Source: a virus. Taken from it: a stretch of DNA of 40,530 nt. Position 1 is the stretch's first letter, and every line of letters starts with the position of its first letter. A program made the translations under genes and the position numbers. The stretch covers positions 1 through 40,530 of IMG/VR virus record IMGVR_UViG_3300027833_000103. One strand, written 5' to 3'. Below the pieces are notes generated by a model. That model saw only the letters and a list, made by a program, of their open reading frames with translations. It was not told the DNA's origin and did not search any database. Below, in pieces: positions 697 through 40,193 of the stretch.

Positions 697-723
697 ATAC
701 TAATACTATTAATCTGACTAAGG

Positions 724-750
724 CTCTGAGTATTACTCAGGGTCTTTTTC
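724..750 (+). terminator. Intrinsic terminator
   Basis: The sequence forms CTCTGAGT, a 3-base loop, then ACTCAGGG (one G-T pair), followed directly by TCTTTTTC. This is a classic stem plus U-tract for rightward transcription. It closes the operon 64-696 and isolates it from the thyX block. Confidence 0.8.
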
Positions 751-844
751 TTAGTCTTACTCTTAATAGTACTCTTAGTCATACTAAGACCAGGACTAAT
801 ACTCCGAGTCATATTAATACTCTTAGGCCGGGCATTACTAATAG

Positions 845-972
845 CCCTACAATGGAAAGCCCTCCGTGGGAATTTGGCCCCTACGTGGGAATTTAGTGTG
901 ATATATTTATCACCCCTACGTGGGAATTTGTACCCTCCGTGGGAATTTGCTTGCACCCTCCGTGGGAATTTG
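845..972 (+). repeat. Cluster of five 17-bp iterons plus a degenerate copy
   Basis: Five direct copies of CCC-T-(A/C)-CGTGGGAATTT-(G/A) start at 860, 879, 914, 933 and 956. A degenerate copy (CCCTACAATGGAAAG) starts at 845, and another lies inside the next gene at 1059. The core CGTGGGAATTT is identical in all five. Spacings are 19, 35, 19 and 23 bases, and the long gap is filled by the 898-913 palindrome. Iterons of this kind usually bind an initiator or regulator. The identity of the binding protein is unknown. Confidence 0.85.
898..913. repeat. Perfect palindrome in the iteron cluster
   Basis: GTGATA-TATT-TATCAC is a perfect inverted repeat lying between the second and third iterons, so the iterons flank it on both sides. 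It could be an operator or an easily melted, cruciform-forming centre of an origin. Confidence 0.75.
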
Positions 973-1002
973 ATTTAGTACTGGCAATGAAGGAGAAAAA
1001 AG

Positions 1003-1140
1003 ATGAGTGAAGAACTAAAAAAAGAGTTGCGTATGATTGGTGTACTAGATCATAAAGTCCCTACGGTGGAAAATGATACGGCACCCATATGGGTAAGAGA
1101 CGATGTAACATTTGATGATAACGGTGAGCCAAACTTTTAG
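1003..1140 (+). CDS. Hypothetical small acidic protein
   Basis: A 45-residue gene with a strong ribosome binding site (AAGGAGAAAAAAG before the ATG). It is the first gene of the replication block, directly after the iteron cluster. The product starts MSEELKKELRMIGVLDH and ends DDVTFDDNGEPNF, so it is acidic toward the C-terminus. I do not recognise it. It contains a degenerate copy of the iteron (1059-1075) in its coding sequence. Confidence 0.65.
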   Translation: MSEELKKELRMIGVLDHKVPTVENDTAPIWVRDDVTFDDNGEPNF

Positions 1141-1149
1141 GAGAGAGCT

Positions 1150-1314
1150 ATGATAAACAGAGATGTGTGGTTAGAGACACTAGACAAGTGTAAAGACGAC
1201 TACAAGATAATAAAGAGAGAGGCAGATTTGTGGGAGAGAGAAGCCAAGCGTCTGCTAGAAGAAAACCACAAACTAAAGGCACAGCTGCGGCTGTGGAAGG
1301 GTACAGGACTATGA
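1150..1314 (+). CDS. Small coiled-coil protein
   Basis: A 54-residue gene whose ATG follows GGAGAGAGCT. The product is highly charged and almost wholly helical, with a heptad-like pattern through WLETLDKCKDDYKIIKREAD and WEREAKRLLEENHKLKAQLR, so a short coiled coil is likely. Its stop codon overlaps the thyX start in an ATGA arrangement (1311-1314), implying translational coupling. Similar short coiled-coil genes precede metabolism genes in many phages, but no function can be given. Confidence 0.65.
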   Translation: MINRDVWLETLDKCKDDYKIIKREADLWEREAKRLLEENHKLKAQLRLWKGTGL

Positions 1315-1937
1315 TCGAAGTAACATACATAGACCACATGGGCAGTGACCTGAGTGTAGTCAATGCAGCTAGGGTAAGCTTTGGTAAGACACACAAAGCT
1401 ATGACAGAGGGTGACACCAAGCTGATCAAATACCTAGCCAAGCATAAGCATATGTCACCCTTTGGTCATGCCTTTGCTAGTTTTCATATCAAGGCTCCTA
1501 TCTTTGTCGCTAGGCAGTTGGTCAAGCATAAGTTCCTACGATGGAATGAGGTGTCTCGTAGGTATGTGGACAGTGATCCAGAGTTCTATGAGCCTGAACA
1601 TTGGAGGGACAAGAGTGAGGATAAGAAGCAGGGGAGCGGTGGAAAAAGTCAGTCCCAGTACTTCCCTAACATCTATGTAAAGGAGGTGGCAGAGAAGGCA
1701 CTAGGTGACTACAAGAAGATGCTAACTCAAGGAATAGCACCAGAGCAAGCACGTATGGTACTACCTCAGTCTACAATGACAGAGTGGTACTGGTCAGGCT
1801 CACTAGATGCCTTCATAGACATGTGTAACCTCAGGTGTAAGCCTGATACGCAGTATGAGACAAGGTTAGTAGCAGACTACATAAAAAGTGAGATGATCAA
1901 ACTGTTCCCAGTATCAGTAGAGGCTTTAGTAAGATGA
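1311..1937 (+). CDS. thyX: Flavin-dependent thymidylate synthase
   Basis: This 208-residue enzyme makes dTMP from dUMP using methylene-tetrahydrofolate, FAD and NADPH. The start at 1311 is chosen over the longer frame from 1230 because the ATG overlaps the preceding stop (ATGA) and the protein then begins MIEVTYIDHMGSD, as ThyX proteins do. The signature region, residues 72-85, reads KHKFLRWNEVSRRY. The family motif is RHR-x7-S, so His73 and Ser82 are kept but both arginines are lysines. An upstream segment HMSPFGHAF matches the usual HxSPFEH with Gly in place of Glu. The C-terminal part has ARMVLP and LRCKPDTQYETR, matching the substrate-binding end. It works with the RNR at 9275 and the MazG-like protein at 8663 in nucleotide supply. 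Confidence 0.93.
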   Translation: MIEVTYIDHMGSDLSVVNAARVSFGKTHKAMTEGDTKLIKYLAKHKHMSPFGHAFASFHIKAPIFVARQLVKHKFLRWNEVSRRYVDSDPEFYEPEHWRDKSEDKKQGSGGKSQSQYFPNIYVKEVAEKALGDYKKMLTQGIAPEQARMVLPQSTMTEWYWSGSLDAFIDMCNLRCKPDTQYETRLVADYIKSEMIKLFPVSVEALVR

Positions 1938-2243: not shown

Positions 2244-2424
2244 CATAAGTTTAACATAAGTTATTACTATTATGTTTAATACTAATAGTTAAAAGCTTAT
2301 GTTTAACTAAAGGGTACTTAAGGTAGATGGAACTTTTTATTTTGTTGTCAAGGGGCAGATAAATATTTATTTTCTACTTGTATCTTTGTTGCCATATGAT
2401 ATGTGTTGTCGAAAGGAGAACACA
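2244..2424 (+). promoter_or_regulatory. Regulatory gap before the primase-helicase
   Basis: A 180-base AT-rich gap. It holds a dyad ACTATTA-N10-TAATAGT at 2267-2290 inside a 26-base block (2266-2291) that recurs with two mismatches at 39945-39970. A promoter-like pair follows: TTGTCA at 2345-2350, a 17-base spacer, then TATTTT at 2368-2373. The GTTGTCAAGGGG part of this promoter also recurs near 40046. GAAAGGAGAACACA just before 2425 is the ribosome binding site for the next gene. The dyad upstream of a promoter suggests an operator. Confidence 0.6.
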
Positions 2425-4008
2425 ATGACTGAAACACCACACCAACCCTGCCCCTTCGTAGACTGTGGCTCGTCTGACGCCTTTGCGTACAACACAGAAG
2501 GCTACGGCAAGTGTCACAGCTGCGGACAAGGCTACCCTGCCAACAAGTCACACGCTACCTTTGACTGGGCAGACGATAAGTACCCGAAGAAAGAAAGAGG
2601 AAACATGAGCGAACATATCCCGACCACAAAGACCATACCCACTACGGGTGATGGCAAGTACGTAGACATGAGGGGCATCAAAGCCTCTACTATGGAAGAC
2701 TACGGTGTAATGACCTACGACAACACACAAGAGTACAAGTACCCTAGTGGTGGCGTGAAGGTACGTAACCTTAAAGAGAAAGGCTTCTGGGCTAAAGAAG
2801 GGTTCAAGGGTGACGAGCTGTTCGGTATGAACTTCTTTACCGCTGGTTCATCTAAGATGTTAACCATCACTGAGGGAGAGCTGGACGCCCTCTCTGTGTC
2901 CCAGATGCTTAAGTCGGGTACCTACACTAACCCTGTGGTATCGTTGCCCTCTGCGACCCCCTCTAAGAAGCTGTGGGAGAACTGTAGTGAGTGGATCAAT
3001 AGCTTTGAGAAGATCATTATCAGTGTTGACGGTGATGAGGCAGGCAATGCTATCGCCACTAAGATATCAAAGCTGTTCCCCAACAAGACTTACAGGGTGT
3101 CGCATGACAAGTACAAAGACGCTAACGAGTTTCTACAGGCTGGGGCTGGACAAGAGTTTAAGTCTGCTTGGTGGAACGCTAAGAAGTATGTTCCTGACAA
3201 TGTTCTTAACACTGCTGATCAGTTCCTTAAGCTGTTTAGAGAGACTCCCGACCATCAGTTTGTGCCTACAGGTATCCAATCCCTTGACGACAAAATCATG
3301 GGACTCATGCAAGGTCACTTTACCGTCATTAAGGCACCCACTGGTATCGGCAAGACAGAGGTAATGCGGTACTTAGAGTACAACCTGATCCAACGGGATG
3401 TACCCTTTGCCAGTTGGCACTTGGAAGAGACAAAGCTTAGGAGCCTCTTAGGGCTCGTTAGTTACAAGCTGGGCATGAACGTGACCCGAAGAGACCTGAT
3501 CGACGCTGGTGGTGCTACTGAGCAAGTGGAAGATGCCATTCGTCAGATAGCTGCCAACGAGTGTATCTATCAGTTCTTCTTAGGTGACGGTCAGGGTACT
3601 GAAGAGTTGTGTGAGCAGATCAGATACTTCCGTGAGGCTTGCGGTGTTCGCTATGTATTCTTTGAGCCTATCCAAGATGTAGTGTCAGGTCGATCAGAGA
3701 GTTCTAAGGAAGAGTTGTTGTCGGACTTGTCTGTACGGTTGTCTAAGTTAGCAGCAGAGCTTAACGTGGGTATCATCACTATCGCACACACTAATGATGA
3801 TGGTGATCCAAAGTATTGTAAAATGATTGGACAAAGGGCTTCAGTTATTATAGACTTGAGCAGAGACAAGGAAGCAGAGGACGATCAAGAAAGAAACACA
3901 ACCACCTTGAAGGTTGAGAAGAACCGCCCATGTAGTGAAGAGGGCTATGCTGGTTCACTACGGTTTAACATGGATACTTTTACTTTACAGGAACTAGACT
4001 ATGGATAA
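2425..4008 (+). CDS. T7 gp4-like primase-helicase
   Basis: This 527-residue replication protein primes lagging-strand synthesis and unwinds DNA as a hexamer. Domains in order: a zinc ribbon (Cys9, Cys14, Cys30, Cys33); a TOPRIM primase domain with Glu150 in ITEGELDA and the Asp202/Asp204 motif VDGDEAG; a linker; then a RecA-like DnaB-type helicase with Walker A APTGIGKT at residues 304-311. Start 2425 has a clear AAAGGAGA binding site, so the longer frame from 2386 is not used. An in-frame ATG at 2605 (Met61) lies just after the zinc ribbon and is preceded by AGAGGAAAC, so a shorter form without the zinc ribbon may be made, as with T7 gp4B. It overlaps the next gene by 8 bases. Its partners should be the polymerase at 4674 and the SSB at 6599. 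Confidence 0.92.
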   Translation: MTETPHQPCPFVDCGSSDAFAYNTEGYGKCHSCGQGYPANKSHATFDWADDKYPKKERGNMSEHIPTTKTIPTTGDGKYVDMRGIKASTMEDYGVMTYDNTQEYKYPSGGVKVRNLKEKGFWAKEGFKGDELFGMNFFTAGSSKMLTITEGELDALSVSQMLKSGTYTNPVVSLPSATPSKKLWENCSEWINSFEKIIISVDGDEAGNAIATKISKLFPNKTYRVSHDKYKDANEFLQAGAGQEFKSAWWNAKKYVPDNVLNTADQFLKLFRETPDHQFVPTGIQSLDDKIMGLMQGHFTVIKAPTGIGKTEVMRYLEYNLIQRDVPFASWHLEETKLRSLLGLVSYKLGMNVTRRDLIDAGGATEQVEDAIRQIAANECIYQFFLGDGQGTEELCEQIRYFREACGVRYVFFEPIQDVVSGRSESSKEELLSDLSVRLSKLAAELNVGIITIAHTNDDGDPKYCKMIGQRASVIIDLSRDKEAEDDQERNTTTLKVEKNRPCSEEGYAGSLRFNMDTFTLQELDYG

Positions 4009-39651: not shown

Positions 39652-39840
39652 TTAAGGCTCTAGTTCTTCTACAAAGATTTCTTCTTTAGTTATATCTTCT
39701 ATGAGGTCTAGTAAGCAGTCTTCTTTAGTTTTATTTATATAGTAATACTTCTTGCCCTTATACTTGACAACACAATAAACACTAAAGTCTATGATCTTTT
39801 TGTTGTCATGGTGTACGATTTCTCTAAAGTCTACTAGCAC
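39652..39840 (-). CDS. Hypothetical small protein
   Basis: A 62-residue frame with a GTG start at 39840. AAGGG lies 10 bases upstream, which is a weak but possible binding site. The product is basic and aromatic in the middle (VYCVVKYKGKKYYYINKTKE) and acidic at the end (LLDLIEDITKEEIFVEELEP), with a mixed beta-then-helix pattern. It sits between the late promoter and the control region at 39841-40263 and reads leftward. It could be a small regulator of the late block, but no family is recognised. Confidence 0.5.
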   Translation of the reverse strand: MLVDFREIVHHDNKKIIDFSVYCVVKYKGKKYYYINKTKEDCLLDLIEDITKEEIFVEELEP

Positions 39841-39888
39841 TGGTTAAGTACCCTTATGTTATTATCATTAGGATTATTATTATAGTTG

Positions 39889-39900
39889 ACTCTTAAGAGT
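39889..39900. repeat. 12-bp palindrome in a leftward promoter spacer
   Basis: ACTCTTAAGAGT is a perfect palindrome. It lies between a TATAAT-like -10 (39884-39879 on the minus strand) and a weak TTAAGT -35 (39906-39901), that is, within the 16-base spacer. A second palindrome ACTTAAGT follows at 39901-39908. This is a likely repressor or activator site for the 39652-39840 gene and possibly for the late block. Confidence 0.6.
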
Positions 39901-39943
39901 ACTTAAGTTAAACATATGGTGTCATTTGTCTCTTTTAATTATT

Positions 39944-39969
39944 AACTATTATGATTAAAACTAATAGTT
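39944..39969. repeat. Dyad AACTATTA-N10-TAATAGTT
   Basis: An inverted repeat with 8-base arms. The surrounding 26 bases (39945-39970) match 2266-2291 with two mismatches, and both copies are followed by AAGCTTA and then by a TTGTCAAGGGG element. Two separate copies of an imperfect palindrome upstream of promoters is typical of a phage operator. Confidence 0.7.
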
Positions 39970-40120
39970 ATCTAATTAAGCTTAACAAATGTATAACATA
40001 TGTAGTGTCCTGTCCTGTCTTTGACATATAGGTATTAATTTTTATTTGTCAAGGGGTGGCCCCTATAAAAAGTGCTAGATTGTGGTAATAGTGTGTTAAA
40101 TATGTCACACATCACTTAAG

Positions 40121-40193
40121 CCAAGGTATTTTTTTATGAGACCCAAGGTATTTTTTTATGTTATAGATAGGAGACCCAAGGTATTTTTTTATG
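40121..40193. repeat. Three direct repeats at 22 and 33 bp
   Basis: The 18-base unit CCAAGGTATTTTTTTATG occurs at 40121-40138, 40143-40160 and 40176-40193. The last two are part of a longer identical unit of 33 bases. Start-to-start distances are 22 and 33 bases, about two and three DNA turns, so bound proteins would lie on the same helical face. They may be binding sites for an initiator or regulator, or tandem-duplication products. Confidence 0.85.

Follow-up and report, generated by a model that had tools for sequence, protein, structure and literature searches.

We conclude that the repeat cluster ahead of the early genes of this phage is probably a promoter-embedded multi-operator region, of a kind conserved across an abundant group of marine phages. 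The cluster is probably an operator array that controls the early/replication operon. The conservation and the orientation of the repeats are direct observations, as is the phasing of the repeats around a promoter in relatives of the Roseobacter phage CRP-6 type.

Repeat array and gene setting

The window, i.e., the whole stretch of DNA analysed, is a virus contig of 40.5 kb. Late genes are on the minus strand, while the plus strand encodes thyX, a T7-type primase/helicase, endonuclease VII, DNA polymerase A, an exonuclease and ribonucleotide reductase. The primase gene starts ~1.4 kb downstream of the cluster, with two small ORFs and thyX coming first. The repeats are called B-boxes here, after the wider family described below, and the palindrome among them is assigned to a second element, the A-box. 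The features of the region are as follows.

700-830, plus strand: 6-nt-periodic, relatively AT-rich stretch between terminator and array
720-746, plus strand: intrinsic terminator upstream of the array
845-859, plus strand: B-box copy 0, degenerate, CCCTACAATGGAAAG; fits the wider consensus CC-N-N-C-N-R-TGGAAA; 87% of positions invariant in 15 sequences
860-876, plus strand: B-box copy 1, CCCTCCGTGGGAATTTG; 100% of positions invariant
879-895, plus strand: B-box copy 2; exact core, conserved
898-913, no strand: palindrome GTGATATATTTATCAC (GTGATA-TATT-TATCAC, 16 bp), a degenerate A-box between copies 2 and 3
914-930, plus strand: B-box copy 3; exact core, conserved
933-949, plus strand: B-box copy 4; exact core, conserved
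951-979, plus strand: candidate sigma70-type promoter TTGCAC-17-TTTAGT, weak; placed as in CRP-6-type phages
956-972, plus strand: B-box copy 5; exact core, conserved; within the spacer of the candidate promoter
1003-1314, plus strand: two small ORFs 3′ of the promoter, of 45 aa (missing in some relatives) and 54 aa (coiled-coil-like)
1059-1072, plus strand: extra B-box match CCCTACGGTGGAAA in the 45-aa ORF; fits the wider family consensus; kept where relatives keep the ORF
1311-1937, plus strand: thyX (PHROG 85, E 5e-72)
2241-2390, no strand: alternative origin candidate, intergenic, 24% GC, directly before the primase gene; shares 11-mers with 39840-40060
2386-4008, plus strand: T7-type primase/helicase, 67% identical to that of CRP-6

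The core CGTGGGAATTT has five exact copies, at 865, 884, 919, 938 and 961, all on the plus strand and within 107 bp, and there is no further exact copy elsewhere in the 40.5-kb contig. When up to two mismatches are allowed, there are 16 matches compared with 6.9 expected, a number reached in 0 of 100 shuffles. In 100 first-order Markov sequences an 11-mer occurs at most twice per 110 bp, compared with five times in the window; five cores in 107 bp are far beyond chance. The initial annotation, which was made from the letters of the window, had described five copies of a 17-bp repeat with an invariant core, as well as one or two degenerate copies, and both descriptions hold; the degenerate copy is the one at 845-859, and a further one is present at 1059-1072. 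It was also correct in placing the array after a terminator. Its description of the stretch as gene-free needs qualification, since an ORF at 672-896 overlaps B-box copies 1 and 2, but this ORF is doubtful as a real gene because the terminator lies inside it and its sequence has a 6-nt period.

Sequence with a 6-nt period also adjoins B-box arrays in two other contigs (L114 7540-7880 and L127 5450-5964, compared with 700-830 of the window), with a period 6/12 autocorrelation of ~0.53. The length from terminator to array in relatives is 94-220 and varies only in multiples of 6, and one frame of the periodic stretch is open throughout, with alternating residues.

The cluster has a GC content of 41-47%. 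There is no RNA-structure signal at the array, with no excess folding (z -0.42) and no Rfam match, which makes a DNA site likelier than an RNA-level element, and the latter was rejected. The idea that the repeats are T7-primase sites, with GACCC before the repeats, was dropped, as the window copies have no preceding GA.

The contig is not a complete genome, because it is missing a segment of ~4 kb that is found between the late and early modules in relatives (contig end compared with L114 6700-11300). In the relatives this segment contains a second B-box cluster, a gene for a 528-aa protein and a peptidase gene.

Conservation in close relatives

A scan with a paired-core pattern retrieved 18 stretches. 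The same five copies with identical spacing of 19, 35, 19 and 23 are present in 14 IMG/VR relatives, with L007 as a variant, and all array copies are on one strand in both the window and the relatives. Across 15 aligned sequences, invariant positions make up 88-100% of the repeats, 87% of copy 0, 62% of the palindrome, 31% of the upstream periodic stretch and 42% of the interval from array to start codon; the repeats are the most conserved DNA of the region. The first small ORF 3′ of the array is absent from several relatives. A BLAST search of the cluster against phage records gave no match. The initial annotation had staked its reading on conservation in close relatives, and that reading survives, the cluster being strongly conserved. 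The fixed spacing in 14 relatives, together with near-invariant repeats, supports an operator array.

It is highly improbable that the cluster is a non-functional or packaging-related tandem repeat. Tandem arrays of 17-bp B-boxes are found elsewhere, with 14 copies in a Rhodobiaceae MAG contig (L357) and 6 copies in a phage contig with structural-looking genes (L359), and these suggest an expandable copy number; what argues against this explanation is the strong purifying conservation and fixed spacing of the cluster, as well as the phasing of the copies to a promoter in relatives. A BLAST search of the L357 array against plasmids gave no match.

The relatives have a second cluster ~4 kb upstream, CCCCTACCRTGGGAAATAG in 4-7 copies, located in the stretch absent from the window contig. 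This second cluster is without a clear promoter, which counts against the operator-array reading.

The perfect palindrome that was noted initially is present in the window, but the corresponding site is imperfect in most relatives (GTGACATATTTGCCAC and similar); judging from these sequences, exact symmetry is not the conserved property.

A wider family of sites built around a promoter

The closest cultured relative is Roseobacter phage CRP-6 (MK613348), with a primase 67% identical to that of the window. CRP-6 and other relatives with ~70%-identical primases have a related array, CCCC-N-C-C-R-R-TGG-AAA-T, which in CRP-6 is located at L001:44770-44871. Sites of the wider B-box family, CCCC-N-C-C-R-R-TGG-RAA, are situated where the early operon starts. 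When IMG/VR was searched for B-boxes embedded in a promoter, at least 120 stretches were obtained, and at least 100 of these have a cluster of three or more copies. Among the matches listed, most genomes have one main array, on a single strand and heading the early operon, and the remaining matches in those genomes are scattered, mostly within coding sequence. Window-type and CRP-6-type copies share one cluster in three contigs (L143, L168 and L184). Finding the same site family in CRP-6 and in at least 100 IMG/VR clusters, mostly as one main array where the early operon begins, again supports an operator array.

In CRP-6-type phages, one B-box copy lies within the 17-bp spacer of a sigma70-type promoter. 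Among the unique promoter-embedded copies in the matches listed, TAnnnT is present at a spacer of 17 in 45 of 81 and at a spacer of 18 in 3, compared with ~5% of random stretches at two offsets. A GANTC site, the target of the CcrM methylase, follows within 35 bp downstream in 74 of the 81 listed copies, compared with 14.5%, and is mostly right after the -10. Among the matches listed, 60/84 have their nearest upstream neighbour at -25 to -27, and 46/84 have their nearest downstream neighbour at +35 to +40. The frequency of the -35 is biased, because the retrieval pattern contained it, while the -10, GANTC and phasing were outside the pattern; three clusters fetched through the primase alone all have the same promoter, -35 included. 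The -10, the GANTC site and the phasing of copies around the promoter in CRP-6-type relatives are a further support for an operator array, as is the similar placement of the last window copy within TTGCAC-17-TTTAGT. The hexamers of this candidate promoter are weak and were not flagged by a plain consensus scan, which counts against the operator-array reading. At the same place relative L008 has TTGACT-17-TCTAGT.

The A-box, GTKGCAARAATGTCAC, is the second element of the same region. In the close relatives L008 and L009 the palindrome site is the exact A-box GTGGCAAAAATGTCAC in reverse complement; in most other relatives it has 1-2 mismatches to the A-box on one strand, and the window copy has 4. 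A-boxes form tandem repeats upstream of the CRP-6 array, and among the matches listed an A-box is found within 250 bp upstream of 46 of 95 distant clusters, compared with 8% of random stretches. The late/early intergenic region of the window (40093-40193) contains an A-box-like GTGTTAAATATGTCAC and then three near-identical CCAAGGTATTTTTTTATG repeats.

GANTC sites are about two-fold under-represented in the window (79 vs 156 expected from base composition). Near CRP-6-type arrays there are 800 compared with 254 across 100 clusters of the matches listed, and in cluster 2 of window-group relatives there are 4-8 compared with ~1 (7 vs 0.9 in G002). The window's own cluster shows no enrichment, with 1 compared with 0.6 in 311 bp, and there is no GANTC directly after the -10 of the window promoter. 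In Caulobacter, the timing of expression correlates with the position of GANTC relative to the -10 and -35 (PMC4287350).

Further occurrences of the B-box are less easily placed. An unrelated GC-rich phage contig (L125) has two B-box pairs, at 331-369 and 1046-1085. An 868-aa ORF, which from its sequence appears PrimPol-helicase-like, has one of the pairs at its start and contains the other; the pair inside this gene counts against the operator-array reading. With a CRP-6-type B-box promoter as query, BLAST against phage records yielded short, unconvincing matches only, chiefly to Lactococcus phages. A scan of a genome collection for paired B-boxes led for the most part to coding sequence or repeats, as well as to one phage-like contig, and to no clear host regulatory region. 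In three contigs (L056:101-190, L066:200-300 and L081:350-420), GAACGAATCAGGAAC repeats upstream of the B-box arrays contain GANTC sites and match GAAC-N7-GAAC, the alphaproteobacterial LexA-box form.

Search for a possible binding protein

No helix-turn-helix family scored above cut-off among the early gene products of the window and the extra segment of G002, and no recognised DNA-binding regulator was found in the window or near relatives, which counts against the operator-array reading. The initial annotation had expected the binding protein to be new; the binder may be encoded by the host, or it may be a small phage protein that has diverged.

Three phage proteins were considered as binders and rejected: (i) a phage sigma70-like factor of CRP-6-type phages, which was not found in the window group; (ii) a WYL_2 protein encoded by CRP-6-type phages, which has no match above cut-off in the window group; and (iii) GP88/DUF7227, which is missing from the window group and for which fold evidence favours an enzyme. 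The gene for the sigma70-like factor lies just upstream of the primase gene in CRP-6-type phages (L197, L066, L081, L001:3586-4101 and others). It matches Sigma70_r4 with E 1e-8 in L197; the CRP-6 protein, gp14, is annotated merely as a hypothetical protein and its match is weak and below cut-off, with a profile tying gp14 to the family. Among the matches listed, 53 of 81 relatives encode GP88 or DUF7227 divergently, no more than ~2 kb upstream, and the unrelated L357 and L359 also have such a gene. GP88 and DUF7227 are never together in one locus (L226:2089-2976, L357:1415-2143, L359:5724-6452), and a third similar Cys-containing family, judged by eye, is located upstream in several more relatives. 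A structural model of GP88 (pLDDT 88) has no confident match in the PDB, the weak matches being mostly to TIM-barrel enzymes, and among viral structures it matches GP88 proteins and, weakly, radical-SAM ones. The weak TIM-barrel and radical-SAM-like matches of the model suggest that GP88 is more likely an enzyme than a site-specific DNA binder.

The array is common to phages that do not share the sigma factor, WYL_2 or GP88, as might be expected if the array served for docking of a GcrA/CcrM-linked host regulator of the cell cycle or of stress, through which early transcription would follow host physiology. We consider this improbable. Of the 81 relatives listed, 74 have a GANTC where transcription would start, and in Caulobacter the position of GANTC correlates with expression timing (PMC4287350); both speak for such docking, but the window's own cluster is without GANTC enrichment, and the genome-collection scan revealed no clear host regulatory region.

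Replication origin or operator array

The cluster had been proposed initially to be a replication origin or a site for a regulator. The regulator half of this proposal is supported by the B-box family built around a promoter in relatives and by the same placement of the last window copy, while the origin half is left without specific support. It is rather unlikely that the cluster is an iteron-type replication origin, either alone or together with a promoter under autoregulation, an arrangement known from plasmid P1 and Vibrio chromosome II. The oriR of plasmid P1 is an iteron origin; in an origin of this type, an initiator would bind the iterons, unwind adjoining AT-rich DNA and load the T7-type primase/helicase. 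The repeats are indeed iteron-sized, direct and in one orientation, ~1.4 kb before the primase gene, but in relatives the copies are in phase with a promoter, and no initiator family was found among the window genes or the recovered G002 segment, in agreement with the initial annotation, which had seen no initiator of a known type. The adjoining DNA at 671-820 is 34% GC, but the AT-richest DNA is elsewhere, at 39851 and 2241. GANTC, avoided genome-wide, is enriched at the arrays of relatives, but the window cluster has one in 311 bp. The L125 B-box pairs, which flank or sit inside a PrimPol-helicase-like gene, are consistent with an origin. GC skew, which had been suggested as a check, may speak against one at the array: it follows gene direction, with its minimum near the divergent junction, and in G002 the minimum (6.25 kb) is nearer the second cluster than the array.

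By composition, 2241-2390 is a better origin candidate than the array. This stretch and the other of the two AT-richest, 39851-40000 (22% GC), share the 11-mers AAGGGTACTTA and ACTAATAGTTA, and together with nearby DNA both share TTGTCAAGGGG.

A combination of these ideas, in which B-boxes, A-boxes and clustered CcrM sites form a joint origin and early-promoter switch tied to host methylation, is quite unlikely. If true, early transcription and replication would both depend on the methylation state of the host cell cycle.

Proposed mechanism

For the operator array that we favour, each 17-bp B-box would be an asymmetric DNA site for one DNA-binding protein, encoded by the phage or the host. 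The last copy would occupy the -35/-10 spacer of a predicted sigma70-type promoter, and cooperative binding may be made possible by the copies upstream of it. Occupied sites would obstruct host RNA polymerase at the promoter or set its timing there, with repression likelier than activation because the site fills the 17-bp spacer. The palindrome may represent a second type of site, the A-box, for another regulator. The array would thereby govern an early/replication operon that probably comprises the small ORFs, thyX, primase, polymerase and other genes.

Comparison with known systems and significance

The operators and stoperators of mycobacteriophage L5/TipsytheTRex are likewise short asymmetric sites oriented with transcription, some of them in promoters, and their asymmetry is explained by a repressor that binds as a monomer (PMC9283540). 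However, L5 has more than 20 such sites, spread genome-wide, whereas B-boxes form just one or two clusters, and the L5 system has a repressor with HTH and stoperator domains, whereas neither a repressor homologue nor lysogeny genes were seen in the window. By analogy, the array would act as the operators of L5 do. It falls outside the L5 system itself, given that its sites are clustered and that the search gave no repressor of this kind.

Iteron origins such as ori2 of Vibrio cholerae (PMC6090056) also place direct repeats, all oriented the same way, close to replication genes, and host methylation sites near the array, here enriched in relatives, are a further resemblance. Unlike iteron origins, the array has no initiator gene that we found and no clear AT-rich unwinding element of its own, and the CRP-6-type copies are phased on a promoter.

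Caulobacter promoters that carry CcrM sites (PMC4287350) likewise have GANTC near promoter elements, in an alphaproteobacterial setting. The phage GANTC lies just after the -10 in CRP-6-type relatives and is absent at the window promoter. A methylation link, if true, would tie early phage expression to the alphaproteobacterial cell cycle.

No prior description of the array was present in the literature searched, with supplements and most subscription journals being outside that search. CRP-6-type phages are reported to be abundant in the ocean (PMC6918029), and a text search of that report turned up no mention of promoters, repeats, sigma factors or early-gene control. The early control region of CRP-6 resembles that of the window in having the same B-box family, A-box repeats and a promoter leading into the early genes. 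It differs in its core TGGAAA with one more spacer base, its many A-boxes and the GANTC at its start; in addition, the sigma-like gene of CRP-6 was not found in the window group. Because CRP-6 is a cultured phage with a cultured host, the RCA strain FZCC0042, the conserved two-element control region makes its early control directly testable, and the region could lead to an unrecognised DNA-binding regulator.
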